A stretch of 64,000 nt of DNA from Branchiostoma floridae. Taxonomy: Eukaryota > Chordata > Leptocardii > Amphioxiformes > Branchiostomatidae. The stretch is from the NCBI RefSeq assembly GCF_000003815.2, contig NC_049988.1, forward strand, positions 2,907,127 to 2,971,126, read 5' to 3'. A model generated the notes under the pieces. It was given only the letters and a program-made list of their open reading frames with translations. It was not told the origin of the DNA and ran no database searches. The first letter of the stretch is position 1. Every line of letters starts with the position of its first letter. Positions 1 to 64,000 of the stretch are shown piece after piece. The translations under genes and the position numbers were made by a program.

Positions 1-558
1 CACTAGTAGAAAAGTACATTAAATGCCGGGACAGAATCTTTACAGTACTAGTAAGAGAACAGGGCTTTTGCCCCGAGTGTGAATACCTGGCTAAATAAAA
101 TAAAATAGAATAAATGAGTATCAGTACCATAACAGTACATTATGAGTACAGTAAGAGTACAGTAGTGGAAAGGTAGAGTGAAGTAGCAGTACAATGCCAG
201 AAAAGAATCAGTACAGCATCAGATGATTATGCATTGTTTTTGCTTTTCTAAAGAACATTTAAGGACTTGGAACAACGTTCCTTAAAATGGCTGGAAATCA
301 ACATGATTTCCTGGCGGTAGGAATCAAAACTGGAATTACATATACATGTACATGTATGATTAAATTTGGTAAGATTCAATATTCAATACCATCAGAAGGG
401 TGTATATTTTGTACAAAAGTCTATGTTCTTTAAAAGAATACTCATGATGTTTTTTTTGTCAGGAACTGTTGTATTTTTGTCTCTTTGGTGACATAAGCAC
501 TTTAATATTGCTACATTTTGTTCTTTTCTATAATCATTAAAAAGTATCCACAACGAAC
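1..558. other. Intronic sequence after DNAJC1 exon 9; no coding exon recognised
   Basis: I searched the minus strand here for the missing third helix of SANT2 and saw nothing convincing. Bases 50-115 resemble the AT-rich 3' tail of a retroposon (gggcttttgccccgag, then an A/T-rich run). Confidence 0.5.
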
Positions 559-695
559 CTTTCCCTTGCCAGGCACCATCTCAGCAATTTTCTCCCATCT
601 CTCTGCTGTCCCCTTGGGGTGCTGTGCTATTGCTGTCTCCAGCTGTTTCTGCTGTTTCTGTGACCATGCTCCGCTGTCCATGTGTGCGCTGGCAT
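559..695 (-). CDS. DNAJC1: DNAJC1 exon 9 (SANT2 domain, first two helices)
   Basis: 137 bp encoding GAWSQKQQKQLETAIAQHPK and then ERWEKIAEMVPGKGK, the start of a second SANT domain. The donor GTTCGT follows, so at least one more exon is expected beyond base 1. Confidence 0.9.
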
Positions 696-9600: not shown

Positions 9601-10148
9601 TTTTCTGCTCCACATCTTAAAAATCAGGCATCTTGTTTTTGACGCCCTCTCAAACTGAATTCTTCATCTGTAGAATATGTCATCCATAAAACTTACTTGC
9701 TATGGCCCAGTTTAATCTTCAAGACATGTGACGTGGCGTTGATACTAAGAAATGTGTGAAAAACTATCTGGGCTTCTATCAAATCAGTTGTTGCTACACA
9801 GCGAGGCCAAACAAATTCAAAACTTCATTTTCTGATTGTAAACATAAACGTGCAACAAAAGAAATACTGTAACTGAAAATAAATTGTCTGCGTTCTTCAA
9901 CTATTCACCCAAGCAACACACCGGTAAGAAAATTAGAATTTCCTTACAACATATGTTCGATACTTCGTCAAAAACTGGGTCTCTACACTGACCTGGTCTA
10001 GTCCTAGGACTTCATAGAAGTTTTGGTTGACTTCCTCCACTAAGTCGAAGAGTTCCAGTTCCTTGGTGTCCCAAGAAAAGGCCGAAGGAAGGAGGAAAAT
10101 CGTAAGAAGAAGTGAGAAACCCAAACTCTGGCTACAGTCGGCAGCCAT
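559..10148 (-). CDS. DNAJC1: DNAJC1 (ERdj1/MTJ1): ER-membrane J-domain protein with two SANT domains; 9 exons in window, 3' end missing
   Basis: Nine minus-strand exons join in frame with GT-AG introns to give 528 residues. Seen in order: a signal peptide (about residues 1-25), a J domain (about 44-118) with the HPD triad at residues 71-73, one membrane segment (about 136-157), a basic and then glutamate-rich cytosolic stretch (about 164-260), an acidic spacer, SANT1 (about 315-365), a lysine-rich linker and SANT2 (from about 490). This order is that of vertebrate DNAJC1, whose J domain faces the ER lumen and stimulates BiP ATPase while the cytosolic part contacts ribosomes. Family length is about 550, so roughly 25 C-terminal codons with the last SANT helix are missing; I found no matching exon in bases 1-558. 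The start codon is followed at once by the signal peptide. Identity is secure; the exon model comes from reading splice sites by eye. Confidence 0.93.
1045..1365 (-). CDS. DNAJC1: DNAJC1 exon 8 (lysine-rich linker between SANT domains)
   Basis: 321 bp of low-complexity polar sequence, rich in Lys, Ser and Asp with KKKSKSDK. The phase (2 bases in, 1 base out) fits exons 7 and 9. Acceptor TTCCAG, donor GTAAGT. Confidence 0.88.
1388..1530. mobile_element. Partial MITE of the ACTGTAAATGCA family
   Basis: It starts CTGTAAATGCATTTGAG and continues with degenerate versions of the internal sequence seen in the better copies at 5235-5442 and 5739-5949. Further half-copies are visible at about 840-960 and 1690-1780. 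Confidence 0.55.
2190..2376 (-). CDS. DNAJC1: DNAJC1 exon 7 (SANT1 domain)
   Basis: 187 bp encoding VEWTEDELSQLAKSMAKFPG, then the helix with GRWEKIAAEVGR. This is the Myb/SANT tryptophan pattern. Acceptor TGTACAG, donor GTAAGT. Confidence 0.93.
2716..2910 (-). pseudogene. Two decayed copies of the 3' end of DNAJC1 exon 6
   Basis: Copies at about 2846-2910 and 2716-2783 read ESIKADLDSYLDHEPVVKKK and DSIEADLDSYLDDEPVIKKK, each still ending at a GT donor-like site (GTGAGA, GTAGAG). They are separated by a shared spacer with CTGCACTACAG, so the whole is a tandem repeat of about 120 bp that includes the real exon end. If spliced from that CAG after exon 6 the phase is wrong and a stop follows, so I read them as non-functional duplicates. 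A further spacer-only fragment is at about 2464-2511. Confidence 0.75.
2971..3134 (-). CDS. DNAJC1: DNAJC1 exon 6 (acidic linker before SANT1)
   Basis: 164 bp. It has a basic KVRRRPKP start, then an acidic part containing SIEADLDSYLDDEPVVKKK at its 3' end. That 3' end and its donor are repeated twice more in the following intron (see 2716-2910). Confidence 0.9.
3197..3335. repeat. TG-rich microsatellite
   Basis: Imperfect (TG)n with TGTATG and TGTCTG variants. The inverted-repeat element at 3336-4583 sits inside a TG tract that continues on its right side. Confidence 0.85.
3336..4583. mobile_element. Inverted-repeat DNA transposon-like element in DNAJC1 intron 5
   Basis: The left end TACTCTCACCTCTCAAATA is matched by its inverse at 4565-4583. 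Both flanks are TG microsatellite. Next to each end are imperfect repeats containing agtacccccc (left) or aacgtaccg (right). I see no transposase. Bases about 3840-4315 may be a second element, because they end in CATCCCTA and resemble 7567-7740. Confidence 0.6.
4584..4668. repeat. TG-rich microsatellite
   Basis: The continuation of the TG tract on the right side of the element at 3336-4583. Confidence 0.85.
4919..5204 (-). CDS. DNAJC1: DNAJC1 exon 5 (basic and Glu-rich cytosolic stretch)
   Basis: 286 bp: a lysine/arginine cluster just after the membrane, then a long charged helix rich in EEEER. The basic cluster fits the ribosome-contact region known for MTJ1. Acceptor CTTTCAG, donor GTAGGT, phase 1 end that matches exon 6. 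Confidence 0.9.
5235..5442. mobile_element. MITE with TACTGTAAATGCA ends
   Basis: It starts TACTGTAAATGCAGAAAT and ends TGCATATACAGTA. Internally it has accaccgcgaacatttttcc, shared with the copy at 5739. About 208 bp and non-coding. Confidence 0.75.
5739..5949. mobile_element. MITE with TACTGTAAATGCA ends (best copy)
   Basis: Ends TACTGTAAATGCA and TGCATTTACAGTA are perfect inverses. The subterminal block gttcgcggtggtttt occurs in both orientations. About 211 bp and non-coding. Confidence 0.85.
6155..6326 (-). CDS. DNAJC1: DNAJC1 exon 4 (end of J domain and transmembrane segment)
   Basis: 172 bp. It completes the lysine codon, then YDEILVTGLPDW closes the J domain. A basic YYYRRVRK stretch precedes about 20 hydrophobic residues (SVFLLVILTIGHYLVAW). 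This fits a luminal J domain followed by one membrane crossing. Confidence 0.92.
6874..7212. mobile_element. MITE-like element with TTTCCTGTTTC ends
   Basis: The left end ttgtctttcctgtttcgg and right end gaaacaggaaacacgacaa are inverted. Next to them on both sides is tagggtcggtaggt or a variant. A fragment of the same family is at about 39515-39580. Confidence 0.55.
7444..7490 (-). CDS. DNAJC1: DNAJC1 exon 3 (J domain helix III-IV)
   Basis: A 47-bp exon encoding LVAVSEVLRDEDMRK plus two bases of the next codon, which is J-domain helix III and the turn. Acceptor TTCCAG, donor GTGAGT. The phase matches exon 4. Confidence 0.9.
7950..8063 (-). CDS. DNAJC1: DNAJC1 exon 2 (J domain helices II-III with HPD)
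   Basis: 38 codons in phase 0. It contains SYRKLALQMHPDK, the J-domain helix II plus HPD loop that contacts Hsp70/BiP. Acceptor CCCACAG, donor GTTAGG. Confidence 0.94.
8385..8637 (-). mobile_element. tRNA-derived SINE
   Basis: On the minus strand the head reads tctctgtggtcgagcggttt (box A-like) and gagttcgatccctgg (box B), followed by a tRNA-unrelated body that shares the cacgttaaag-type block with the other SINE copies. Confidence 0.6.
8638..8961. mobile_element. MITE-like element with GTGCACC-rich ends
   Basis: gcttgaaat at the left and atttcaagc at the right are inverted. Next to them are blocks with gtgcaccca or ggtgcacc. About 324 bp and non-coding. Confidence 0.5.
9071..9388. mobile_element. 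hAT-like MITE with CAGGGTTGGACAAGT termini
   Basis: CAGGGTTGGACAAGT at 9071 is exactly inverted as ACTTGTCCAACCCTG ending at 9388. The CAG...CTG ends are typical of hAT elements, but the flanking octamers do not match, so no target duplication is seen. About 318 bp and non-coding. Confidence 0.75.
9993..10148 (-). CDS. DNAJC1: DNAJC1 exon 1 (signal peptide and start of J domain)
   Basis: 52 codons in phase 0, beginning MAADCSQ, then a hydrophobic leucine-rich signal core, and ending FYEVLGLDQ, which is J-domain helix I. The donor GTCAGT follows directly. Confidence 0.93.
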
Positions 10149-10559
10149 GTTGGATTCTCTGTGATTTCTCTTTCGGGACGCACCAATAAGGTAACGGGGG
10201 TAAAATTATATGAATATTTTAAAATAACAACACTAGTAGATTAAATAAAGTATTTTATGATAGACACATGCTAATATAGTATTTTATGATATGAATCTTC
10301 ACAATATAACAAAATTGTTGTTTAAATTGCAATTTGGGTAAACCTTTTCTATACATTTATCCCTATGATACTTATTGGTTTGTCCCTAACATTTTAAATG
10401 ACACTGGACCAACACTGGACCGAATTTGGAATATTACGAAATATAGAGTAGAGTAGAGTAGTAGTTTTAAAGGCCATATTCTGTCAACACCTAACCTGAA
10501 TTCACATCCAACGCTCATACACTACTTTAAAGGAACATAAATGCTATGAACTTGTGTTT

Positions 10560-10877
10560 CTGCGTTATTTTTTGCACATGGGTTTCGCAACGTGTCATCA
10601 GCGCCCCTGTGCGATAGTTGAACGTATTGCAGAAACCAACACCGTAACGCTGCAAACTTCTAGAGAGTAAAACGTTAGAGTAAAAACAATTAACGTTAAC
10701 GGCTTTTAATTTACTCTGATAAGAAATCAAAGACCGTAATTTTCAAAAACTATTTGAAACAATAACTGCTACAAAAGCAATGACAGAAAGCGCGGGAAAA
10801 CGCCACACAAATACGTCTGTTGTTTTACTTTTCGACGCAAGGCGACGCTTTTGACACGCGGGCATCACAGGTTTTGG
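10560..10877. repeat. Left half of host tandem-repeat unit A, interrupted by the foldback element
   Basis: It matches 16341-16690 in the same orientation, for example at cgtattgcagaaaccaa and at gacgcaaggcgacgctttt. Unit A resumes at 16268 after the 5.4 kb insertion. Confidence 0.75.
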
Positions 10878-10898
10878 CATCTGGGTAAGGAGCGCTCC

Positions 10899-11153
10899 CA
10901 GCACGTCACCGGAACGTACTGCGCCTGCGCGAAAAGTATAGACATGCTAAACCTTGCTAAACCCCCGGTTTACTAAAGGGCCGCATTTAAGAAAGTACGT
11001 GCGTATATAAGGGTAAAATCCCGTGTACGTTTTGCATGAAACCATGTCTCTAACATATACTGTGCAACAAGCGGGATTTCAATGCAACGTTGACCAAACC
11101 AAGCCCCAAAACACCAGGGTTCGCGCAGGCGTAGTACGTTCCGGTGACGTGCT
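10899..11153. mobile_element. Nested 255-bp MITE inside the foldback left terminus
   Basis: The ends CAGCACGTCACCGGAACGTA and TACGTTCCGGTGACGTGCT are inverted over about 34 bp, continuing into cgcctgcgcgaa. It is flanked by AGCGCTCC at 10891-10898 and 11154-11161. The right arm of the host element carries the uninterrupted sequence, which proves the insertion. The 8-bp duplication and CAG start suggest hAT. Confidence 0.88.
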
Positions 11154-11535
11154 AGCGCTCCCGGTGCCAGCCATATGGGGAGGACAGGCCGGGGAGGGTA
11201 GGCCGGGGGAGAGGGGGCCAGACTGTACCATTGTACGTGTAGGGGGGAAAGCACAGTAGTATTGCAAGCACATCTGTGTCCTCTAAAACAAATTTCTGGC
11301 TAGCTGGCGCCCACTTTGGAAGCTAAACTACGATATTTCTTGGATTACCAGAAATTTATGCTATGGCAAAGTCGGGACTCTAAGTTTAGCAAAAACAGCA
11401 AAATTATATAAACCTGTAACAGCGACACCTACCGGAGTGAGTGTCCTTACTTTTGCTGCCATGCAAAATCCTATATTTTTACCGAACTAAAAGCTTCATC
11501 GACAATAAACTAAACATACAAATTCGACCAAACTC

Positions 11536-14500
11536 TTTCCATTTACACCGGTGTGTTGACGCTACGTACTCCAAGTGACAATTTTAACAGACATCAATGC
11601 GTAATGACGTCAGGTTACCATAAAGTTGACAAGGAAATCATGGCGGGACGTCAGGGTACCATAAAGTTGAAATATGCGCTCAGAAGGAGGTCAGGGCGGG
11701 TTTTCCACTGTTTTGACCTAGTTCATAAAGCCATAGACAATAAACTAAACATACAACTTCCACCAAACTCTTTTTCCTTACACCGGTGTGTCTACGCTAC
11801 GTACTCAAAGTGACAAATTTAACAGACATCAATGCCTAATGACGTCAGGGCACCATAAAGTTGACATATGCGCTCAGAAGGAAGTCAGGGTGGCTTTTCC
11901 ACTGTTTTGACCTAGCTCATAAAGCTTCATCGACAATAAACTAAACATACAAATTCGACCAAACTCTTTTCAATTACGTCGGTGTGTTGACGCTACGTAC
12001 TCAAAGTGACAAATTTAACAGACATCAATGCGTAATGACGTCAGGGTACCATAAAGTTGACAAGGAAATCATGGCGGGTTTTCCACTGTTTTGACCTAAT
12101 TGAAAGAGTCATTGACAATAAAGTAAACATACAACTTCGACCAAACTCTTTTTCATTACACCAGTGTGTCTACGCTACGTACTCCAAGTGACAAATTTAA
12201 CAGACATCAATGCGTAATGACGTCAGGGTACCATAAAGTTGACATATGCGCTCAGAAGGAAGTCAGGGCGGGTTTTCCACTGTTTTGACCTAGTTCATAA
12301 AGCCATAGACAATAAAGTAAACATACAACCTCGACCAAACTCTTTTCAATTACACCAGTGTGTCTACGCCACGTACTCAAAGTGACAAATTTAACAGACA
12401 TCAATGCCTAATGACGTCAGGGTACCATAAAGTTGACATATGCGCTCAGAAGGAAGTCAGGGCGGGTTTTCCACTGTTTTGACCTAGTTCATAAAGCCAT
12501 AGACAATAAACTAAACATACAACCTCGACCAAACTCTTTTCAATTACACCAGTGTGTCGACGCCACGTACCCAAAGTGACAAATTTAACAGACATCAATG
12601 CCTAATGACGTCAGGGTACCATAAAGTTGACAAGGAAATCATGGCGGGTTTTCCATTGTTTTGACCTAATTGAAAGAGTCATTGACAATAAAGTAAACAT
12701 ACAACTTCGACCAAACTCTTTTTCATTACACCAGTGTGTCTACGCTACGTTCTCCAAGTGACAAATTTAACAGACATCAATGCGTAATGACGTCAGGGTA
12801 CCATAAAGTTGACATATGCGCTCAGAAGGAAGTCAGGGCGGGTTTTCCACTGTTTTGACCTAGTTCATAAAGCCATAGACAATAAACTAAACATACAACT
12901 TCGACCAAACTCTTTTTCATTACACCGGTGTGTCTACGCTACGTACTCAAAGTGACAAATTTAACAGACATCAATGGATAATGACGTCAGGGCACCATAA
13001 AGTTGACATATGCGCTAAGAAGGAAGTCAGGGCAGCTTTTCCACTGTTTTGACCTAGCTCATAAAGCTTCATCGACAATAAACTAAACATACAAATTCAT
13101 CAACCAAACTCTTTTGAATTACGCCGGTGTGTTGACGCTACGTACTCAAAGTGACAAATTTAACAGACATCAATGCGTAATGACGTCAGGGTACCATAAA
13201 GTTGACATATGCGCTCAGAAAGAAGTCAGGGCGGGTTTTCCACTGTTTTGACCTAGTTCATAAAGCCATAGACAATAAAGTAAACATACAACCTCGACCA
13301 AACTCTTTTCAATTACACCAGTGTGTCTACGCCACGTACTCAAAGTGACAAATTTAACAGACATCAATGCGTAATGACGTCAGGGCACCATAAAGTTGAC
13401 ATATGCGCTTAGAAGGAAGTCAGGGCGGGTTTTCCACTGTTTTGACCTGATTCAAAAAGTCATAGACAAGAAACTAAACATAAAACTTTGGCCAGACTAT
13501 TTCCATTTAGTAATGTCTTCGCTACGTAATCAACGTGACACATTTAACAGACATCAATGCGTAATGACGTCAGGATACCATAAAATTGACCATGGGGTCA
13601 GAAGGAAGTCAGGGCGGGTTTTTCAATATTTTGACCTAGTTCATAAAGCCATAGACAATAAACTAAACATACAACTTCAACCAAACTCTTTTCAAATATA
13701 CCGGTGTGTCTACGCAACGTTCTCCAAGTGACAAATTTAACAGACATCAATGCGTAATGACGTCAGGGTAAAATAAAGTTGACATATGCGCTCAGAAGGA
13801 AGTCAGGGCGGGTTTTCCACTGTTTTGACCTAGTTCATAAAGCCATAGACAATAAACTAAACATAAAACTTCGACCAAACTCTTTTCAAATACACCGGTG
13901 TGTCTACGCAACGTACTCAAAGTGACAAATTTAACAGACATCAATGCGTAATGACGTCAGCGAAGTCATCGATCTTTGATATGCGCTCAGAAGGAAGTCC
14001 CGCTGGGTTTTCCACTGTTTTGACCTGATTCACAATGTCGTAGACATAAAACTTCACACAAACCTTTGGCCAGACCATTTCCGTGTATACGCCTCTTCCC
14101 CACAGAGACAACGTGACCCAACTTACATACATAAATGCGTCAGGACACCAGGATGCCGAAAAATTGACCATGATGTCAGACGGAAGGCAGGGCCCGTTGT
14201 TCTGTACTTTCACCTAATTCATCAAGCCTTATACAATAAACTAAACATACCACTTCAACCACACTCTTTTCCAACATACCGGTGTGTCCACGCAACGTTC
14301 TCCAAGTGACACATTTAACAGACATCAATGCGTAGTGACGTCAGGGTAAAATACAGGTGACATATGCGCTCAGAAGGAAGTCGGGGCGGGTTTTCCACTG
14401 TGGTTGACCTAGTTCATAATGCCATAGACAATAAACTAAACATACAACTTCGACCAAACTCTTTTCAGCATCCACCGGTGTGTATACGCTCCGTACTCAA

Positions 14501-14580
14501 AGTGACAAATTTAACAGACATCAATGCGTAATGACGTCAGGGTACCATAAAGTTGACATATGCGCTCTGAAGGAAGTCTG
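11536..14580 (+). repeat. Foldback left array: about 16 tandem units of 183-198 bp
   Basis: Units recur at acatcaatgcgtaatgacgt with spacings mostly of about 183 or 194 bp. Two subtypes alternate: one contains caaggaaatcatggcggg, the other catatgcgctcagaaggaag. Fifteen units hold TGACGTCA; the unit near 14130 has lost it. Confidence 0.9.
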
Positions 14581-14584
14581 GCCG

Positions 14585-15930
14585 GCGTAATTGAAAAGGA
14601 GTTTGGTCGAAGTTGTATGTTTAGTTTATTGTTTCTACTTTATGGTACCCTGACGTCATTACGCATTGATGTCTGTTAAATTTCTCACTTTGAGTTTAAT
14701 GTGCGGAACTCTGGTGTAATTGAAAGAGTTTGGTCGAGGTTGTATGTTTACTTTATTGTCTATGGCTTTATGAACTAGGTCAAAACAGTGGAAAACCCGC
14801 CCTGACTTCCTTCTGAGCGCATATGTCAACTTTATTTTACCCTGACGTCATTACGCATTGATGTCTGTTAAATTTGTCACTTGGAGAACGTTGCGTAGAC
14901 ACACCGGTATATTTGAAAAGAGTTTGGTTGAAGTTGTATGTTTACTTTATTGTCTATGGCTTTATGAACTAGGTCAAAACAGTGGAAAACCCGCCCTGAC
15001 TTACTTCTGAGCGCATATGGCAACTTTATGGTACCCTGACGTCATTACGCATTGATGTCTGTTAAATTTGTCACTTTGAGTACGTGGCGAAGACACACTG
15101 GTGTAATGAAAAAGAGTTTGGTCGAAGTTGTATGTTTACTTTATTGTCAATGACTCTTTCAATTACGTCAAAACAGTGGAAAACCCGCCATGATTTCCTT
15201 GTCAACTTTATGGTACCCTGACGTCATTACGCATTGATGTCTGTTAAATTTGTCACTTTGAGTACGTAGCGTCAACACACCGACGTAATTGAAAAGAGTT
15301 TGGTCGAATTTGTATGTTTAGTTTATTGTCGATGAAGCTTTATGAGCTAGGTCAAAACAGTGGAAAAGCCACCCTGACTTCCTTCTGAGCGCATATGTCA
15401 ACTTTATGGTACCCTGACGTCATTACGCATTGATGTCTGTTAAATTTGTCACTTTGAGTACGTAGCGTCAACACTCCGGCGTAATTCAAAAGAGTTTGGT
15501 TGATGAATTTGTATGTTTAGTTTATTGTCGATGAAGCTTTATGAGCTAGGTCAAAACAGTGGAAAAGCCACCCTGACTTCCTTCTGAGCGCATATGTCAA
15601 CTTTATGGTGCCCTGACGTCATTACCCATTGATGTTTTGTAAATTTGTCACTTTGAGTACGTGGCGTAGACACACTGGTGTAATTTAAAAGAGTTCGGTC
15701 CAAGTTGTATGTTTGCTTTATTGTCAATGACCCTTTCAATTAGGTCAAAACAGAGGAGAACCCGCCATGATTTCCTTGTCAACTTTATGGTAACCTGACG
15801 TCATTACGCATTGATGTCTGTTAAATTTGTCACTTTGAGTACGTAGCGTCAACACGCCGGTGTAAATGGAAAGAGTTTGGTCGAAGTTGTATGTTTAGTT
15901 TATTGTCGATGAAGCTTTTAGTTCGGTAAA
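14585..15930 (-). repeat. Foldback right array: about 7 units in inverse orientation
   Basis: Inverse of the left array with seven TGACGTCA cores (about 14654 to 15799). The outermost units correspond to the outermost left units, so copy number differs internally between the arms (about 16 against 7). Confidence 0.9.
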
Positions 15931-16267
15931 AATATAGGATTTTGCATGGCAGCAAAAGTAAGGACACTCACTCCGGTAGGTGTCACTGTTACAGGTTTAT
16001 ATAATTTTGCTGTTTTTGCTAAACTTAGAGTCCCGACTTTGCCATAGCATAAATTTCTGGTAATCCAAGAAATATCGTAGTTTAGCTTCCAAAGTGGGCG
16101 CCAGCTAGCCAGAAATTTGTTTTAGAGGACACAGATGTGCTTGCAATACTACTGTTCTTTCCCCCCTACACGTACAATGGTACAGTCTGGCCCCCTCTCC
16201 CCCGGCCTACCCTCCCCGGCCCGTCCTCCCCATATGGCTGGCACCGGGAGCGCTCCTTACCCCACTC

Positions 16268-16740
16268 GGTTTTGGTGCTGCGTTCTGGAGCTCGTTATAA
16301 TTTTCAATACATGGTGATTACGTTTTGGGTGCCGTTTTGCGTCCTTTGTGCATTCATGTATCTCGGTTGTATATTATCAGCGCTCCTTTGCGATAATTAA
16401 ACGTATTGCAGAAACCAATACCTTACTGCTGGCAACATTATAAACTCCTCCTTCTTCCGTTATTAAGTACTAGCCTATGAAGATTAAACATAATTAACAG
16501 CTTTCAAATTACTCCGATAACAAAGACTGTAATTGTCAAAAACTGTTTGAAACAATAACTGTTACAGATAAACATAAGCCATGGTAGAAAACACTAGCTA
16601 CGTGAAAAAGCAAAACAAATGTGTCTGTTGTTATGCCTCTAGACGCAAGGCGACGCTTTTGACACGCGGACAACTCAGATTGGACCTGCGTTCCGGAGGC
16701 TCCTCGTATTTTGTAATACATGGTGATTGGGTTTTGGAAG

Positions 16741-16750
<10 letters not shown>
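16268..16750. repeat. Rest of host unit A and complete tandem unit B
   Basis: 16268-16340 is the right part of unit A; 16341-16750 is unit B, an uninterrupted second copy of about 400 bp. The segments ctgcgttctggagctcg and ctgcgttccggaggctc, each followed by acatggtgatt, mark the repeat. Confidence 0.7.

Positions 16751-16772
<22 letters not shown>
16742..16772. repeat. (GT)n microsatellite
   Basis: An uninterrupted GT tract at the end of tandem unit B. Confidence 0.9.
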
Positions 16773-17265
16773 ATGTTTGTTTGTTAACGACATAAATATG
16801 ATATGTCGGATAAGAAAAATCTATCCGGGGACGTCCCAAACCGAAGCTAGGAACTCATTTTCACCCAATTGAAGTGAGTGCCAGTAATGACAGGGGTCAG
16901 AACTGACCAAAATAACATTTTGCAAAATACAGCTGTGTATGTCGCATAAAAAAGGGCCTTGCAACTTTCAGCAATGATAGGCAAACAACATGGCTATACT
17001 GTTATCGGTGCCACAAAACTACTACTTCTACTACAGTGCGCGAACTAGAGAACTACATATCCAATGACATTGCAAACAAATTATTTCGTTTGGCTCATTG
17101 TCGTATTCATATTCAGGTTCAAACATTATGAAACAGTCTTTGCATCCACAAAACGCAGCTCTCTGACCTCTTGTATTATTTCCCAAAGTCTAGAAACAAA
17201 TTGAGAAAATGTGAAATTGCTCGTAAAGACAATGTGATCGTGTGTTCACCGAAGCACGTATCTAC

Positions 17266-17567: not shown

Positions 17568-17868
17568 AACGACCCGTCACACTAACTTTTGCACATTTAT
17601 CTGCAAGCTATCTTAAAAAAAATATATCCAGAGAAGATGCTCCTACTGTGCTTGGTGATAACAAATTCCACTCTACGATAGTTCTGGGAAAATTCGAATT
17701 TTTGAACACATCAATCCTTGTTTGGTAACTCTGATCTGAAGGTATGACTGTTTCTTGTTCTTTTTTTTTTGAGCTGGCATTAGATTCTTATCAGTCGGCA
17801 CGTCCACCAGAGTATTGGTAATTCTGTACATCATGCAAAGTGTGGACATGTTGAAAATCGGGAATCAG

Positions 17869-49057: not shown

Positions 49058-49242
49058 TCATGCCGGCGTGACGTTTTCGTAACCCGTCGTCTTACTTCGG
49101 GAGGCTCTCGGGTCTTCGGGAGTCCATACCTTGGCGTACAGTGTTGAGCCGCTACTGGCGGGCTTCTTTTCGTCCGTCCAGGACAAGGAATGACCCGCTA
49201 GCGGTGGTAGTCCATACTCTAGGTCTCCGGGCGTCGGGACGC
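49058..49242 (-). CDS. Ptf1a: Ptf1a paralog 1 exon 2
   Basis: 185 bp from acceptor AACACAG to TGA at 49058-49060. It encodes the HSLSWTDE and KVWTPEDP motifs. Confidence 0.95.
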
Positions 49243-50781
49243 CTGTGTTAATGAAGTAAATAACAGTGTAAAAATGACACGAAATGGGTAGCGTTTTCTA
49301 CTCGTGGCTATAACAAGGCCAGCGTTAGCAAAAGTTATGTATTGCCTCCTTCGGTCAATATTGACCATGGTAAAATCCTAATTGATATCAGCCCTACAGC
49401 TTCAACTATGACTAAACCGTTCAATAAGAGATTGACACTCTCTGTCTGCAAAATAGAATCAAATATAAAACAGGCATCATAGAAAAAACAAACAAAGAAA
49501 TAATTGAATATTTCGTTATTTTGTAGTATAAACACAAAGCAATATCTGACCCCCTCCCCTAAGATGTTGGTAACGCGCTACGTCGCGTGCTTCAAAAGTT
49601 TCCATATGGAAAACTTTGTCACGGTTGTGTTTCAATTTTTCACGGTCCTAATCATAACTTACTGTCCCCCTGCCAAACACTGTATTCAAAAGGCAAATCA
49701 GTGTGTCAAAATCTATTCTTATTTTCCATCTGGAACTCCGACCAGTTTTTCGCACGAGTTTTGCGGGCGCCCATTTCGAACGTGACGTCATAATCAAACG
49801 AGTTAGAGGGTGGGTGAGGGAAGGTCCGTGAGAAAATTTTGCTTTCCTACAATATGGTAACTTTCTAATCGTATTCCTTTGTGTTTGTAAGATTGAAATG
49901 ACCTCCGATCGTCACAGAAATGCTGCACCTGTTCTTGTAAAAAAATCAGAGACGTCGTAAGTTGAATATTATTTTTGAAAGCGATAGAAAGTTTGCAATT
50001 TTCGAAGAACAAAATACTGCGTCGCAGGCCTTTTCTTCTTGTTCGTTATTTCACTAGAAATATGATCATCATAAACATGGTACCTATTGATACATACGTA
50101 AATCTATGTAATTTCATAAATTTTTCATGGCAAAATAACTTCCAAATCGAAATGTTACGTGCTTTTTTCGTGTGTCTGTTTAGTATTGTTGAGATAGAAG
50201 TTGTGAATATGTGCGCGCGAAGTAGTATATGTTTAACCATTACCAGAGCTGTGAAGAAAAAATGGAAAATTCCTAAAATATTAAATAAAAAAACTCTTAC
50301 CAGTTCCTCGGTGACATATGATGACTTTTTTGGGCTGTGGGTGATTCGGGATGACTTCGCCGTTTAGTTCGACGTCAGAGTTCAGAAGGTCCGAAAGGAA
50401 GTTTATGTACCCAATGGCCAGACGCAAAGTGTCGACTTTTGACAGTCGCTTTTCGTACGGTAGCGTCGGGATTCTCTGACGCAGGCCGTCAAAAGCATCG
50501 TTGATCGACTGCATGCGTCGCCGTTCGCGTAAGTTTGCGGCCTGACGTTGCGCTTGTTGCTGCACCGCCGATCTCTTCTTACGTCGCCGTCGGACGCTGG
50601 GAGACGTTGATCCGTCAGGCGAGCGCGAGTCGTCCGTCAAGTCTTCCTGATCGAAGACGCCGTCGAGGTTGTCGTAAGACGACGGCGACGACGCGAAGTC
50701 GTCGAAGAAGTGTTCGACGTCGACGTCGCTGCCGACGCTGCTCATATCGTCTAGCGTGACGTCTTGACGTAAAGTGGACAT
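49058..50781 (-). CDS. Ptf1a: Ptf1a paralog 1 (bHLH transcription factor), 2 exons
   Basis: Exons 50301-50781 and 49058-49242 join in phase 1 to give 221 residues. The bHLH domain is at about residues 79-133, with [15 protein letters not shown] and [20 protein letters not shown], followed by KKVIICHRG. Exon 2 gives [17 protein letters not shown] and KVWTPEDPR, the conserved C-terminal Ptf1a motifs whose tryptophans mediate RBPJ/RBPJL contact in vertebrates. Ptf1a is a sequence-specific activator in pancreas and neural development, acting as the PTF1 trimer. The protein is shorter than vertebrate Ptf1a, mostly before the bHLH. I chose the ATG at 50781; an ATG twelve codons later (50745) aligns as well with paralog 2. 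A TTTAAA box and CCAAT lie upstream and a minus-strand AATAAA is at 48862-48867. This copy is nearer vertebrate Ptf1a than paralog 2. Confidence 0.95.
50301..50781 (-). CDS. Ptf1a: Ptf1a paralog 1 exon 1
   Basis: 481 bp: an acidic N-terminus, an RRRRKKR stretch, the bHLH and [10 protein letters not shown], ending at donor GTAAGA in phase 1. Confidence 0.95.
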
Positions 50782-50815
50782 AGCGCGGTCCCTAGAGTTT
50801 ACGCCCGCGGGTCCC

Positions 50816-50888
50816 TTTAAACAGGGCCGAACTCTTCTTGGATTCAAACCAAACCCGTGACACGTGGAACTAGAACTAAGGGACCAAT
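50816..50888 (-). promoter_or_regulatory. Ptf1a paralog 1 core promoter: TTTAAA box and CCAAT
   Basis: TTTAAA at 50816-50821, 35 bp before the chosen ATG; CCAAT at 50884-50888. The short distance to the ATG supports the alternative start at 50745. Paralog 2 has the same TTTAAAGG context. Confidence 0.5.
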
Positions 50889-50983
50889 CACAGACCAGGA
50901 CACGCACGGCCGCGGTTTTCATGGCGCGTGGCGGTTAGGTGGGGAGGGTGGCCCTCGCGTGGGCTCGCATTTTGTCAACAACA

Positions 50984-51009
50984 GCGGAAGAGACAATATT
51001 TGTCCACTC
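50984..51009 (-). promoter_or_regulatory. 26-bp upstream element shared by both Ptf1a paralogs, copy 1
   Basis: It matches 54601-54626 at 23 of 26 positions, including an identical CAATATTTGTCCACTC. It starts about 203 bp upstream of the ATG. TATTTGT fits the forkhead consensus TRTTTRY. Confidence 0.7.
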
Positions 51010-53514
51010 GGCCCAGAATTACCGGGACTACACAAACTAGTAACCAAAGCACAGAAGATTTCGTGGAGAAAGAAGGGGGAGGGGCTATTTTTTTGTGTAT
51101 AAAACAAGCTCTCACACAAAGAGAACATTTAGACCAAAAGTAAACATCCTTTAATAGTTTTCACAGTTTAAGCGGACGGTAGAAGGTATTGGGCACAAAC
51201 CAAACACTGGGTTAAAATGGAGGCAAACAAGAACACGCGACTACAAGAGAGATTATTGACAATTACTAATCCTTACGGAGTAGAACCAAAAGCAAGAAAT
51301 AACTTAAGCTTTTTAGAGATATCTGGCTACAAACGATGCTGAATATTATCATGTCAAATCTGTAAGAAAAAAAAAGAACGAAAAATAGATATATTATTTG
51401 ATTCCTTAGTATGAAAATTAACGTGATAGCCCACACCACGTTTTAATCTAGTGCTAATAATTTTAGATTTATTTCTTTTTGTTTTTTGAAGCGACTGTAA
51501 ATTTTTCATAATCATGGAAAATGTCATTGAAATGTATCACTGTTATGTAGGACAAAACATTTCGCCGTTGTCATCCGTTAACGTTTACAGCAAACTGTTT
51601 CTTCTACCTATTACATAATTTATCATATCTATAAATTACATATATTCATCGTGCTTACCTGGCTATATTTGCTATGGACAAGTAGGGGTTCTTTAATGGC
51701 CTAAAATTAGCACGTTTTCTTGGTTCCACGCCGAATTAAAGTTAGAAATTCTCTTTCAGACCCCCTTCCAGAAGATTATATCATTTGATCAAGAAAGTTA
51801 TCAAATATACGTTGACATTTTAAAGTTCGTTTTCCGCATTTATGGCGTCGTGTGTTGTAATGTTTGCCAACTATAGAATCATAATTCTTCTCACCGCGTT
51901 TCCATAACATAACAAGCGAAAAGAAGTTGAACCTACACAGTACATTAGTTAATTTAGATGTAAGATAACGCAGTTCTATGTCACAGTATTCTATTGTAAA
52001 CGCATAAATGTAAAATACAGGTCTTTCTTTTATATTGATTTATTGATTATACAGGTTGTGTGAAGGTTTGCGCTACATGCGAACTTTTTGGAAGATGTGA
52101 CGAATGGAAATACCCTTTTCCTTGTTGTTCTTATTTTCTTTTTTTGTGTGGAAAATTCAGCCAAGTCCTGGTCGTGGACGTTACCATTATGTAAGAAGGA
52201 TTTACCTATTAATATCTAGATCGGGGCCCGACTGGGATATTTGCGGAAACAAAAAATAAAGGTGTTTTCAAAGGAATATACATAACTTATGCTGATAACT
52301 ACTTTTGTTTGTATCCTGTGTGTTTTGTTATCATTTACGTATGTCATACATTGCTTTCCCGAAAACAACCCGGCCGGGTCCACGGTTTGGAAATGTGGAT
52401 TGACATTGCCAGGTAATTGGGGTCAGTAGCTCAACTGTGAAACCGCTACCAATTGAACTACAAGGACATCCTTTTACTCCGCTTTCTTCGGCAGCTACTT
52501 GGCCAACTATATTGCAATGGAGGCCTTTACCATTTAAAGACTTGTTGGCGGGGAATTTACCATTGTAAGCGGACTACATCAACCAAAATTCTACTAGTTC
52601 ATGGCATACCCAGCAAAATTCAAACGAGGGGTAAGAATGGTGCCGGGGAGGGGGGCCGTTTCCTCTAGCTCTCACTCCGACAACATTAAGTGTATCCTGA
52701 AGAGCTTTTCAAGTGCCACAAAACACGATAACTCTGTCCTGCTGCTTCCTGAAGAACGCCCCTACTCGTGTGTTTGTAGTGTTGGCACCAAACTGCGCCT
52801 AAAGTCAACATTGATACAGGAGGAATTGCGGGGAGGGTAAATTTGCGCACAGGCCAGGTGGAACCAGAGGTGATTTAGACTGATTGATAATACCCTACCA
52901 GGGCTGAATTGAATAAGAGCATTTCTTTGAAAAACAGCGGTATCCCAACACAGGGCTTAAAGTATTGTATGTGGGGAAAACTCGGTTTATTACTTTTTTT
53001 GTCCGGATATTTGCACGTGAGAGACTATTGTAATCTACCCGTGTAAGGGGCAATAAAGCTCGCAACAAAGGTATTTCCGTTCAACCATTTTATATACACC
53101 ATAATACACAATAGCGTCACATTGATCGTATAAAATTGTTCCATCGACTGACAAAATGACCCGGCAGAACAGTTTGTATCACGTCCAACTTCCTAGCGAA
53201 ATATACAAGAAATATAACAATCGAGATACGGCAAAATACATTAACTGCACAGCATAAATACATACTCAATGCAGGCGAATCATAATGCTTTTTTCATGTG
53301 TAGTGCGGTTTCAATACTGCTCGCCTATTCGTCATTGTAGAAATATACAACGAGTTTTGACGTAATAAGACCAAAAGCTTCTGTGCAATGGTATTCAAAG
53401 ATAGCGAACAATATACACGTTCTGATATATCAACATTTACAAAATAAAGGCGCCTGGCCTATATGTATATATAATACTGTTTACATATAATGTCTTTGTT
53501 TTGAAGTACTTTCA
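51010..53514. other. Spacer between the two Ptf1a paralogs
   Basis: AT-rich, with no exon recognised. 52190-52400 resembles the MITE at 62083 (gtttggaaatgtg); 52640-52860 is a degraded repeat shared inverted with 19880-20070. It contains any 3' UTR of paralog 2. Confidence 0.6.
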
Positions 53515-53708
53515 CTACGCCGGAACAACTTGTGCCAACCTCAAACTGTTACTTTTCTGGGTGCATTCAGTCCTGGGGTCTAAAGGGGTCCAGATTTTGG
53601 CCACTAGTGTCTGCCCTGTGTTGGGTGTTTTCCTTTCGTCCGTCCATGATAGGGAGTGTCCCTCTAGCGGCGGTACTCCGTACTCCATATCAGTGGGCGA
53701 CATGCTCC
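53515..53708 (-). CDS. Ptf1a paralog 2 exon 2
   Basis: 194 bp from acceptor CTGAAG to TAG at 53515-53517. It holds HSLSWTDER and KIWTPLDP. Confidence 0.92.
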
Positions 53709-54415
53709 CTTCAGAAGGAAAACAAAGAGAGAAAAAAGTCATGAATCATTATTTCAGTCCACACATAACAGATAGACATTTAAATATAGATAAATGGTGG
53801 AAAATCTCTCCAAATGTTGTCGCTATAATATAAAGTACAAAGGCAAAATTAAGCAGTCAACAAGCTGATAATTGAAAACTATTTGTGAAGTTTGTCTTGT
53901 AACGTACCTGTTCCTTTGTGACTTATGATGATTTTTGGTGGCTTCTTGAGTCGGCTGTGCGCGACTGCTCCCTCTCCTTGAGTGTCAGATTTGACTAAGT
54001 CCGTCAGAAAGCGAATGTACCCGATAGCAAGATGCAAGGTGTCTGCCTTGGAGATACGCCTCTCGTACGCTAACGTTGGCACGCGTTTCCGCAACACGTC
54101 GAAGGCGCCGTTGATAGACTCCATGCGTCGACGCTCACGCACGTTGGCGGCCAGACGTTGCTTCTTTCTCTGCGTCGCTGTCTTCTTCTTCCTTGGAGGT
54201 GACGTCTCTGCGTCGCTTACCGGTGATGCTACGCCGTCAGAGCTAGAGCCGAAACTCGCCACGCCGTCGGATCCGGACTCGAAACTCGTTTCGCTCACAT
54301 CGTCCATAAATTCGTCCAGAAAATCACCACTAGGTGATGGAGGTGAAGAAGACAATATGTCTTCCAGCATCCTTGCAAAGTCCACATCACTGGCAACACA
54401 ACCGAACCCGTCCAT
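53515..54415 (-). CDS. Ptf1a paralog 2 (bHLH transcription factor), 2 exons
   Basis: Exons 53908-54415 and 53515-53708 join in phase 1, at the same place as in paralog 1, to give 233 residues. The bHLH is at about residues 87-141 ([24 protein letters not shown]), then PKIIISHKG, then exon 2 with [17 protein letters not shown] and KIWTPLDPR. Intron position and both C-terminal motifs identify it as Ptf1a-type, not merely a related Fer or Atonal gene. Differences from paralog 1: Ser for Cys in the IICHRG motif, His for Arg in TLRLAIG, Lys-rich text before the bHLH and a longer C-terminal tail. It is the more diverged copy. Whether it still binds RBPJ is open, although both tryptophans remain. 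Confidence 0.93.
53908..54415 (-). CDS. Ptf1a paralog 2 exon 1
   Basis: 508 bp: [13 protein letters not shown] start, Ser/Asp-rich region, KKK patches, bHLH, ending at donor GTACGT in phase 1. Confidence 0.93.
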
Positions 54416-54484
54416 TGTTTTGCAGTTGTCCGCTCTGTTCAGCCCCTACTTTGAACTGCCCGGAGTCCGAGCTTCACTCCCTCC

Positions 54485-54531
54485 TTTAAATATACCCCGT
54501 GGATTCTAATTGGTCGGTGACCACGACCAAT
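54485..54531 (-). promoter_or_regulatory. Ptf1a paralog 2 core promoter: TATA box and two CCAAT motifs
   Basis: On the minus strand TATATTTAAA (54485-54494), 70 bp before the ATG. CCAAT is at 54509-54513 (minus) and 54527-54531 (plus). Confidence 0.65.
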
Positions 54532-54584
54532 CAGGAGCGTTGTTTCTCTCGGACGCGTGTAGGGGCGGGGCATGTTTGCCACAT

Positions 54585-54601: not shown

Positions 54602-54626
54602 CGGAAATGCCAATATTTGTCCACTC
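54601..54626 (-). promoter_or_regulatory. 26-bp upstream element shared by both Ptf1a paralogs, copy 2
   Basis: Same as 50984-51009, about 186 bp upstream of the ATG of paralog 2. Confidence 0.7.
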
Positions 54627-54665: not shown

Positions 54666-55075
54666 GTAGCCTGGATGCCAGACTGTGTCTAGGGCCCGCA
54701 CAGGCCAGCTCTTCGGCTTTCTTATAGGGCCAACATGCCCCTAACAAATTTTGCCCGGAGACAATCCTCAGTAGCCTGGATGCCAGACTGTTTCCAGGGC
54801 CCACACAAGCCAGCTCTTCGGCTCCAGGGCCAACCTTTCCCCAAGGAAATTTTACCACAGCCCCAGAGTTTAGCGTAGATGCCAGACTGTTTCCAGGGCC
54901 CACACAGGCCAACTCATCGGCTCTAGAGTCAACATGCCCCCAAGGAAACTCTACAACCCCTAGGCTCTTGGTCTAATATGCCTCTAAGGAAAGTTTACAA
55001 CTTCGTGAGGTTTTCGGGGCCTACACAGGCCAGCTCCTCGGCTCCAGGGCCGACTTGCACCAAAGCAATTTTACC
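54666..55075 (+). repeat. Diverged ~108-bp tandem repeat upstream of Ptf1a paralog 2
   Basis: Three to four units with gatgccagactgtttccagg, cccacacaggccagctc and aaggaaatttta blocks. Confidence 0.88.
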
Positions 55076-55159
55076 ACAACACACAACATGTAACGTTATA
55101 AAAATGTCCATAGATACAAAGGTTAAAAATATTAAAAACCTCTTTGTGTGTGTAAAAAC

Positions 55160-61200: not shown

Positions 61201-63691
61201 GTAAACAAAGAAATTTGTGTCCTTTTCTGTTCCTTATTGCATTCATTGTCTTGATGTGTTTTTTTTTATCCAGGGGATTAACATCTTCGACCAAGAATGC
61301 TACCAAAAGTACAACAAGATCTACGGGTATGTATTTTACTATCTACTGCTGTTCGTTGTTGTGCCAGCCAGTAGTCGGCATAAGGCCACTGCAAGTTAAT
61401 TTTATGGATGACATCCTCTGCAGACTGCAAAAATAATGAGATAGGGCAAAAAAAAACAACAAGATGGGTAAAAAAAAACTACGATGACAATTTTTCAAGA
61501 TAGACACCATAAATGTTGTGACAAGAATTGAGGTGACAAAAGGTCTCATCACACCTAACAATTTGCATGTTTGGTGTTTGTTTATGTTGCTACGAATTAC
61601 ATGAGTTACAGGTCATTATGACGTATATTTTGTGATATTGCAGAATTTTCGAGGGACGGCAGCCCATACTGATGATCGGTGACCTGGACATTGTGAAGGC
61701 CATCACAGTGAAGGGCATCAACACTTTCACCAACCACAGGGTAAGGCTAAGGGCACAACCCGCCGCACGTGCAATTTGTCCGTACGTTTTTTTGGAGGCC
61801 ACGTCCGCCTCGTATTTCTGAAAACGTCCAGGCTGTACAGGGCAGGCGCGTCGCCCGTACTGGCACGTACTGGGGGCGAATCCGCAGCCCGACGGCACAC
61901 ACAGTTTTGCCTGCACGTAAAGTTCTACGGCGTGTCTGAGTGCTCCAAAACCCGTCGGATTCCCTACGTGTTCGTACGGAGGCAATACTTACCACGTACG
62001 GATTCCAAAAGATTGCCCACGTTTTGGCACGTAGACAGCACGCATTTGCACGTACGGCGAGTTGTGCCCTTAGCTTAAGGCCTGCGTCACATTTCCAAAC
62101 CGGGGCCCGGTCGGGCAGCTTTGGAGAACGAAGAGTATGATATAAAAGACACCAAACCACACAGGACGAAAGGAGAACAGTCGTGGGCTTTATTTGTGTA
62201 TATTTTTACGTGTACTCGTACATGTCTATTTTCCGTTTCCACAAACAGCCCGGTCGGTCCCCAGTTTGGAAATGTGACGTCATGCGCACAATACCAGTTT
62301 TACCATCGTGAATATGGAGGTATTGACTATTGTTTTTGGTTCGTTTTATTGTCTTGTTATTTGTGTGTGTGTTCCTATCTATCATCTAATAACCCATTCA
62401 CACTCAGAAAAACGATTCGAATAAAACATGTTATCCGAATAAAACGACCCGATTCGAATAAGTTTCTGCAGTGTGAACGCTTCAAAATCACTTGGACTTC
62501 GTCGAAGTGAATCCTTCGCGATCCACCTCGGGGAGGTGGATAGAACTGGGGCAAGTGGATAGAACTGCGCTGAGGGGAGTCCCGATTCGTGCAATTCGGC
62601 AGTGTGAACGCGCGAGTGGATAGGATTCTGGGGTGTAACGTCATTCATCCGGGAACTTGGAGTCATACTTCGCATCGCGCGGGAAACACTACACACTGTC
62701 ACTGATCGCTTCGTTTTTCAGCGAGCATTTTCCACCGTATTTTACTTCCAACAACAATAAGCGGAAAGAAGGGAAATCTTCATCATTCGCCAAGTGGACA
62801 CCGTAACAAACGAAGCTGCTTATTTCCATCTGGGGGTGGGAGGAGACGCAGAAAAAGCTCGGGGAGGTCCATAAAAACAGGGACATTATAATATGAAGAT
62901 ATATCCTAAGGAATGGCGGAGCATGGAGTTGAGAAATCCCTCGACCAGTGCAGAAATAAAGTGAATCTCACCGCCAACTACCACAAGACGTAGCGATACA
63001 TCTGTGAAACGCAACTAATGTTTTATTCAGATAAGACTGAGGGCGCACTAATCGGATTGCTGAAGAGCAGTGTGAATGTTTTATTCGAATCGTTTATCTG
63101 AGTGTGAATGAGTTGGTTTGGTTTTTGGTTTGGAGTCCTGTTGATTGATGTAAATCACCATATGGCTAATAAGAGACGGAGGTTCGCTAGGCCTCCATCC
63201 GGGGGATTTGTAGTAAATCACCAACTCCAGACAGAAGGATTTGCACCATCGCACACCGGCATGCCCGTACTCTTTTTCGAAAGGTGTGGTGAGATCTTTA
63301 ACGTGCGCAAGGTGTGGCTCTCCCCAAACACGGGACCTACATTAGACGTCCTATCCGAGGGACGTCCCTTGCCGAAGCTAGGTACTCATTTTCAGTTTCA
63401 CCTGAGTGAAGTGAGGAAAGTCGTGTAACGTGCTTTTCCGAAGGGCACAAGATCAGTGCCACGGCACGATTTGACTCGGGACCTGTACGTCCTGAGCCAA
63501 ACACGCTGCCCATGACGCCATGCGATCCCACCGATGAGTTCATTTTGGGTCATAACTTCTTTTTGCCCGTCCCACAGGACATGCCAGGCCAAGGTGAAGG
63601 AAAACACGCCCTCTTTTTCTCCAAGGATGAGACTTGGAAACGGCTCCGAATTGCGATGTCACCTGCTTTCAGCTCTGGAAAACTCAAGCAG
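58135..63691 (+). CDS. CYP3-clan cytochrome P450, first five exons (cut by window end)
   Basis: Five plus-strand exons (58135-58202, 59431-59524, 61274-61326, 61644-61740, 63578-63691) join in frame to 142 residues. Seen: a hydrophobic N-terminal ER anchor (WVLVGLCALFLYMYLVW), the FKKLGIPGPKPVPLFGHYLE hinge, NIFDQECYQKYNKIYG, the GRQPILMIGDLDIVKAITVK segment, TFTNHR, then FFSKDETWKRLRIAMSPAFS with the helix-C WxxxR pattern (WKRLR) and SSGKLKQ. The order and wording are those of CYP3A and CYP3-clan proteins. Such enzymes are ER-bound monooxygenases that oxidise varied lipophilic substrates with NADPH-P450 reductase. About 360 residues, including the I helix, ExxR and the heme-ligand Cys, lie beyond the window, so function and subfamily cannot be settled. 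Confidence 0.92.
59010..59221. mobile_element. MITE with CTCCAAGCAGAGGTTAGGC ends, copy 3 (P450 intron 1)
   Basis: tttccaagcagagattagac at the left, gcctaacctctgattggaga at the right. The inner gtcgtttttatcgggctttc is perfectly inverted. Flanks tagctagttcc and tagctagtgcc are similar and may be a target duplication. Confidence 0.88.
59431..59524 (+). CDS. P450 exon 2 (proline-rich hinge)
   Basis: It completes Met, then YLVWPFSTFKKLGIPGPKP and onward. Acceptor ACTCTTAG, donor GTTCGT. Confidence 0.93.
59660..59900. repeat. (GA)n purine tract in P450 intron 2
   Basis: About 240 bp, almost purine-only on the plus strand, of GAGA and GGGA units. Confidence 0.95.
61009..61135. mobile_element. MITE with TAGCCTCTACCAG ends, copy 3
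   Basis: TAGTCTCTACCAG at the left, CCTGGTAGAGGCTA at the right. In P450 intron 2. A different inverted pair (gataccatcctccgcagtaa) precedes it at 60908-61003. Confidence 0.8.
61274..61326 (+). CDS. P450 exon 3
   Basis: GINIFDQECYQKYNKIY plus two bases. Acceptor TATCCAG, donor GTATGT. Confidence 0.9.
61644..61740 (+). CDS. P450 exon 4
   Basis: It completes Gly, then IFEGRQPILMIGDLDIVKAI and so on to TFTNHR. Donor GTAAGG, with a MITE beginning 8 bp after the exon. Confidence 0.92.
61748..62072. mobile_element. MITE with TAAGGGCACAAC ends, abutting a P450 splice donor
   Basis: TAAGGGCACAAC..CGCCGCACGTGCAA at the left is inverted at the right as TTGCACGTACGGCGAGTTGT and GCCCTTA. 325 bp. Confidence 0.88.
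62083..62282. mobile_element. MITE with GCGTCACATTTCCAAAC ends
   Basis: gcgtcacatttccaaaccgg with ggcccggtcgggc is inverted as gcccggtcgg and agtttggaaatgtgacg. About 200 bp. Confidence 0.85.
62395..63110. mobile_element. Inverted-repeat element with CATTCACACTCAG ends
   Basis: CATTCACACTCAG and aacgattcgaataaaaca at the left are inverted as tgttttattcgaatcgttt and CTGAGTGTGAATG at the right, about 34 bp. 716 bp with no transposase. Confidence 0.88.
63240..63530 (-). mobile_element. tRNA-derived SINE, long copy
   Basis: It shares tctttaacgtgcgcaagg, cttgccgaagctaggtactc and gaagtgaggaaagtcgtg with copies at 18770 and 44640; the head is at the right (ggcgtcatgggcagcg on minus). Confidence 0.7.
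63578..63691 (+). CDS. P450 exon 5 (helix C, WxxxR)
   Basis: 38 codons from DMPGQGEGKHALFF to SSGKLKQ, with WKRLR. Acceptor CCCACAG, donor GTAGGC. Confidence 0.93.
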
Positions 63692-64000
63692 GTAGGCACG
63701 CAATACTGTCATCATCTATGCCTTCTGCCCCAAGGCCTATACATCTTGGGGAGGTTCAGCTTAACATGCTCAATTTTTCTTCTTTTCTGGCCGTGGTCCC
63801 TAAAGGTGTACTCTCACTGCACTTGCGTCAAGCTTGCGTCAATGCGGGACTCGTTCACTGTGTCACTTTGGATATTGCTTGATACGTAAAAGTATGACTT
63901 AGAAGACGAAAAAATACACAAAAAGTAAGAAAATTGTTCTTTATCTCTATAAATTCTTTCGAACCCCGCAGTGATGCAAGCTTGACGCAATTGCAGTGAG

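Follow-up and report, generated by a model that had tools for sequence, protein, structure and literature searches.

A tandem pair of Ptf1a-type genes in Branchiostoma floridae, with a conserved first copy and a second copy that appears to evolve faster

The window analysed here, i.e., the whole stretch of 64,000 nucleotides of Branchiostoma floridae DNA at C10:2907127-2971126, carries two intact, two-exon bHLH genes, both on the minus strand and arranged head to tail (Table 1), with a gap of 2,733 bp between the start codon of copy 1 and the stop of copy 2. Both copies are located on one chromosome-scale contig of 23.9 Mb (C10), and the letter N is absent from the 9 kb around them. Splicing of both copies was predicted from sequence rather than from cDNA; four in-frame acceptors in all were found for copy 1 and three for copy 2, and the first of each was used. 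Both predicted introns are of the GT-AG type and in phase 1, and they interrupt a homologous glycine codon, after IICHRGTG in copy 1 and after IISHKGTG in copy 2. The bHLH is not interrupted by an intron in either gene and matches the Pfam HLH family with E-values of 1.5e-21 (copy 1) and 1.6e-18 (copy 2). An earlier note on this DNA had described two intact tandem copies 2.7 kb apart, with a common phase-1 intron, with IICHRG in copy 1 and IISHKG in copy 2, and with both C-terminal tryptophan motifs; the matching gene models and the distance between them bear out the tandem pair, the predicted splice sites agree with a common intron, and all of these motifs were found in the sequences.

Table 1. 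Features of the two genes and of their upstream regions; positions are those of the window, and offsets give the start of a word relative to the start codon.
Feature	Copy	Position	Strand	Offset	Details
Whole gene	1	50781-49058	-		221 aa
Exon 1	1	50301..50781	-		start codon, N-terminus, bHLH, IICHRG
Intron (predicted)	1	49243..50300	-		phase 1, 1,058 bp
Exon 2	1	49058..49242	-		includes stop
Whole gene	2	54415-53515	-		233 aa
Exon 1	2	53908..54415	-		start codon, N-terminus, bHLH, IISHKG
Intron (predicted)	2	53709..53907	-		phase 1, 199 bp
Exon 2	2	53515..53708	-		includes stop
Word GAGTGGACAAATATTG	1	50994..51009	-	-228	16 bp, identical in both copies
Word GAGTGGACAAATATTG	2	54611..54626	-	-211	16 bp, identical in both copies
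Word TGATTGGTC	1	50882..50890	-	-109	inverted CCAAT box type
Word TGATTGGTC	2	54525..54533	-	-118	inverted CCAAT box type
Word GAATCCA	1			-64	
Word GAATCCA	2			-91	
Word TTTAAAGG	1	50814..50821	-	-40	TATA-like
Word TTTAAAGG	2	54483..54490	-	-75	TATA-like

To the left of the pair, a DNAJC1-like gene (550-8069, minus strand) encodes a J domain (7944-8069) and two SANT domains; the best PDB matches of the SANT domains are to human DNAJC1 (2cqq, E 2.5e-17; 2cqr, E 3.5e-9), with DNAJC2 close behind the 2cqr match (E 1.4e-8). DNAJC1 and PTF1A are linked on human 10p12, and it is possible that the linkage of the DNAJC1-like gene with Ptf1a is conserved with that of vertebrate PTF1A. Apart from the J domain, the matches in a Pfam scan of both strands from 7000 to 46990 were limited to short stretches of DHX37_C and a single weak hit to DUF6431; the DHX37_C matches recur over 7000-16990 on either strand and in more than one frame and probably represent a repeat rather than genes. 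To the right of the pair, near the end of the window, an open frame on the plus strand (63410-63886) contains a stretch that resembles cytochrome P450 3A (PDB, best E 2e-4), and the same strand has, at about 62865-62990, a Myb/SANT-like match to Myb_DNA-bind_4 that is weak (E 1.6e-4) and does not reach the cut-off of the family.

By their structure and their C-terminal motifs, copies 1 and 2 are Ptf1a genes and form a real tandem duplicate. Copy 1 has a PTF-type bHLH, as judged against reference domains that were entered by hand, as well as the C-terminal motifs GHSLSWTDE and WTPEDPR, as judged against a hand-entered human sequence. Copy 2 likewise has a PTF-type bHLH, which is free of introns in contrast to those of the Fer2-like and Ferd3l-like genes of this genome, as well as both C-terminal tryptophan motifs, including GHSLSWTDE, and, in comparison with copy 1, a matching phase-1 intron after II.H.GTG; copy 2 is thus a Ptf1a gene by structure, since its bHLH contains no intron, its later intron is that of copy 1 and neither tryptophan motif is missing. 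As these motifs are kept in both copies, the proposal that the two proteins have diverged activation surfaces is not clearly borne out. We also searched the assembly from which the window was taken (513 Mb; 513,431,437 bases on 431 contigs). With the HLH profile (E≤0.001), copy 1 ranked first and copy 2 14th among at least 78 matches listed, and copy 1 as a query gave 49 matches at E≤10, among which the C-terminal exon alone (E<1) was matched only at copies 1 and 2. Exon 1 of copy 2 matched 13 PDB sequences, TWIST1 best, with no Ptf1a-named entry among the 13. Searches of prokaryote and virus contig collections (genome_contigs and viral_contigs with alignment A1, and genome_contigs with the copy 1 bHLH) found no relatives, which is uninformative given such collections.

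Four PTF-type genes were found in the genome, i.e., copy 1, copy 2, a Fer2-like gene on contig C1 (locus L043, about 4446, plus strand) and a Ferd3l-like gene on contig C7 (locus L045). In the Fer2-like gene the first bHLH piece stops after RLSKV, and in the Ferd3l-like gene the bHLH is interrupted close to where helix 1 ends; both intron positions are approximate. According to an ant survey (PMC3527142), Fer2 and Fer3 (PTFb) have an intron in helix 1 and the bHLH of Fer1 (PTFa) is intron-free; the site of the Fer2-type intron differs between the ant and the amphioxus genome. An intron inside the bHLH, as found in the Fer2/Fer3 types of the ant and of this genome, is absent from copy 2. A downstream piece of the Fer2-like locus, DLTARLSWIKWE, contains LSW and may represent a tryptophan motif of the RBPJ type in a gene other than Ptf1a; a WTP motif was not seen on the plus strand of this 9 kb locus.

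For the comparisons, the PTF sequences of human and fly were entered by hand rather than taken from database records. When these hand-entered sequences were included, the best bHLH tree placed both copies in one weakly supported group with PTF1A and Fer1 (UFBoot 58), and inside this Ptf1a group copy 2 joined PTF1A and Fer1 rather than copy 1 (support 45); without the hand-entered sequences, copies 1 and 2 came together with a support of 72. Four alternatives were compared by the AU test, namely (i) the two copies as sisters, (ii) copy 1 with PTF1A and Fer1 but without copy 2, (iii) copy 1 with PTF1A, and (iv) copy 2 within PTFb. None of the four was rejected, either on the bHLH or on the bHLH plus the C-terminus, and none of three was rejected when Fer1 was omitted; the lowest AU p value (0.052) was obtained for copy 1 with PTF1A on the bHLH. 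With regard to a tree that places copy 2 outside Ptf1a, which the earlier note had named as counter-evidence, the best tree keeps copy 2 inside the group, but the AU test rejects no alternative; the assignment of copy 2 to Ptf1a is carried by gene structure and not by the tree. The AU test leaves a placement of copy 2 in PTFb unrejected (p 0.25, 0.15, 0.32), and a published lancelet PTFb count of three would fit copy 2 having been classed there. That copy 2 is a PTFb (Fer2/Ferd3l) member which came to resemble Ptf1a by convergence is nevertheless very improbable, as it has the intron and both C-terminal motifs of copy 1, its bHLH is intron-free, and separate Fer2-like and Ferd3l-like genes exist.

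As to the published counts themselves, Simionato and colleagues give three PTFb genes in B. floridae compared to one in sea urchin (PMC1828162), and a table in PMC2862960 lists one PTFa and three PTFb genes for lancelet and one PTFa gene each for chicken, zebrafish, rat, and mouse. Since the published one plus three equals the four PTF-type genes found here, we infer that these earlier gene counts probably placed copy 2 in PTFb. A 2025 preprint (PMC12338642) credits B. lanceolatum with an apparently true Ptf1a and has one lancelet protein in its tree. Among the matches listed by a literature search on amphioxus Ptf1a/PTF, which covered titles and the starts of abstracts and mostly excluded subscription papers, there was no mention of a tandem Ptf1a pair.

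The proteins encoded by the two copies are 54% identical over the whole alignment and identical at 43 of 59 positions in the bHLH; identity of the bHLH to hand-entered human PTF1A is 50/59 for copy 1 and 40/59 for copy 2. The copies differ at 37 of 56 fourfold sites (pS 0.68), with a dS of about 1.8, which indicates that the duplication is old, as synonymous sites are near saturation. Compared to this dS, dN between the copies is low (0.41 for the whole proteins and 0.17 for the bHLH), so that both frames have been under selection. Collapsed or unmerged alleles of a single gene, i.e., an assembly artefact of the kind raised in the earlier note, have virtually no chance of explaining the pair; we found no point in support of this explanation, and the copies differ at the majority of fourfold sites and in intron length, and lie on a single chromosome-scale contig in a region that contains no N.

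The relationship between the copies extends beyond the bHLH and the C-terminus. A Smith-Waterman alignment of the two N-termini scored 60, compared to a mean of 31.9 (sd 5.8) for shuffled sequences, with 3 of 5000 shuffles reaching 60, and SDVD as well as acidic stretches are common to both N-termini; the earlier statement that copy 2 lacks clear N-terminal similarity thus does not hold for the comparison between the copies. When compared to the hand-entered human N-terminus, copy 1 was similar (9/2000 shuffles) and copy 2 was not (627/2000). Moreover, the 300 bp that precede the start codon contain four words whose order is the same in both genes (Table 1). Among 2000 Markov shuffles of the upstream stretches the longest common word was 13 bases, compared to the 16 observed. 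Exact matches to GAGTGGACAAATATTG in the window are limited to the two promoter sites; with up to 3 mismatches there are 3 matches in the window, compared to an expectation of 0.80, and a count of 3 is attained in 6 of 100 shuffles. In 52 further loci (194,101 bases) this word gave five matches, all of which are the two window sites again. The 300 bp upstream of copy 2 also have a 17-base word in common with the tile at 17701; this word is a C run. Because the copies differ at roughly two thirds of their fourfold sites, the identical 16-mer points to constraint, and with a proximal promoter that is partly common to both, there is no need to assume distinct sites of expression for the copies. 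Degenerate direct repeats with a spacing of ~100 bp are found at 54666-55078, just upstream of copy 2. With a simple motif definition of our own, bipartite E-box/TC-box (PTF1-type) sites numbered zero in the 9 kb around the genes, compared to an average of 1.9 in shuffles, and 26 in the whole window; the lack of such sites in these 9 kb provides no support for local autoregulation. One loose RBPJ-like 8-mer is located at 49827.

An origin of copy 2 as an older paralogue, which would predate the chordate or the bilaterian split and would have survived in amphioxus and been lost in vertebrates, rather than as a duplicate that arose within the cephalochordate lineage, would be consistent with synonymous sites near saturation, with the best tree that includes hand-entered sequences, in which copy 1 falls outside the grouping of copy 2 with PTF1A and Fer1, and with the AU test, which leaves copy 1 with PTF1A and Fer1 but without copy 2 unrejected (p 0.13, 0.12). 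By contrast, bp-RELL excludes this same arrangement in both data sets that test it (0.042, 0.044), and the copies are adjacent, with common N-terminal sequence and upstream words in the same order. The copies also have in common four bHLH residues that are absent from hand-entered PTF1A and Fer1; this last point is weak because these residues are in part found in the Ferd3l-like (D21, R26, D54) and Fer2-like (S58) genes. Overall, we consider an older paralogue unlikely.

Change in the bHLH is distributed unevenly between the copies. Private changes in copy 2 and copy 1, respectively, numbered 12 and 2 with hand-entered human PTF1A as the outgroup and 10 and 2 with hand-entered fly Fer1; they numbered 5 and 2 with TWIST1 (PDB) and with hand-entered fly Fer2, and 5 and 3 with hand-entered FERD3L. 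When the Fer2-like or the Ferd3l-like gene from the same assembly served as the outgroup, they numbered 5 and 2 in either case. The direction is thus the same for all seven outgroups, and the lean toward change in copy 2 is strong only with the two hand-entered PTFa outgroups. Judged from these sequences, copy 1 looks conserved and copy 2 looks derived, as a lopsided change would fit such a pair better than an even split.

The earlier note had suggested subfunctionalisation, in which the copies would have split ancestral neural and gut roles between them. Two old copies that are both constrained would be expected under this scenario, and a 2026 gut study (PMC12768270) assigns ptf1 to an exocrine-like module that also comprises hhex and bhlha15/mist and is described for several species, one of which is B. 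floridae; in the passages considered, ptf1 is given without naming copies. However, the lopsided change argues against an even division, as do the upstream words common to both copies; as originally stated, the suggestion is unsupported, and a conserved plus a derived copy provide the better fit. A neural-versus-gut split of the pair would be possible, and we regard subfunctionalisation as improbable.

We consider it likely that the locus comprises two working Ptf1a-type genes, a conserved copy 1 and a faster-evolving, specialised copy 2, that originated by an old tandem duplication. This duplication would have copied promoter and gene together; copy 1, as the conserved copy, most likely keeps the ancestral Ptf1a roles, and copy 2 would be an intact duplicate that is evolving faster. 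Ptf1a is known to assemble with Rbpj and an E protein into a trimer, in which the substitution W298A disrupts the interaction with Rbpj (PMC6054649). Since the tryptophan motifs are kept in both copies, both proteins probably act as Ptf1a does; on the basis of their domains and motifs, each most likely dimerises with an E protein via its bHLH, then binds E-boxes, and recruits RBPJ (Su(H)) via the C-terminal tryptophan motifs. Both genes are presumably transcribed, with proximal promoter input that is probably common to the copies and may lead to shared expression. Distal enhancer input probably differs, and the copies probably also differ in fine DNA-binding or partner properties; for these reasons a specialised duplicate is the best interpretation of copy 2.

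In vertebrates, Ptf1a is a switch gene for pancreas and inhibitory neurons, and for reconstructions of its ancestral role amphioxus provides a key outgroup. The pair described here is a genuine, old duplicate that belongs to a known kind, and it represents a testable case, with a conserved copy, a drifting copy, a common upstream word, and RBPJ-type motifs that have been kept. If there are two copies and one has been counted as PTFb, expression work on one copy may miss or misassign signal. A more far-reaching interpretation, to which we give little credence at present, is that cephalochordates have a second, misfiled Ptf1a in which the RBPJ surface and the promoter module were kept while the DNA-reading domain drifted, and that the pair divided or extended a neural and exocrine programme; if this were true, amphioxus, with its two genes, would offer a natural test of the order in which the roles of Ptf1a arose.

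Among known systems, Ptf1a/p48 (PTFa; fly Fer1) is similar to the pair in its intron-free bHLH and its WTPxDPR motif, whereas amphioxus has two tandem genes, and in copy 2 the bHLH has diverged and IICHRG is replaced by IISHKG. Fer2 and Ferd3l/Nato3 (PTFb) have a bHLH related to those of the copies, and the Fer2-like locus includes the LSW piece; by contrast, their bHLH is split by an intron and they are located on other contigs, while that of copies 1 and 2 is unsplit. Ciona Ptf1a and Ptf1a-r provide another example of one chordate with two Ptf1a-named genes (PMC7693978), but the annotated Ciona Ptf1a is called a paralogue in the Fer cluster in the 2025 preprint (PMC12338642). Finally, amphioxus MRF (MyoD family), according to PMC7693978 and PMC7530620, is likewise a developmental bHLH gene that was independently multiplied in amphioxus, albeit in a bHLH family other than that of Ptf1a.
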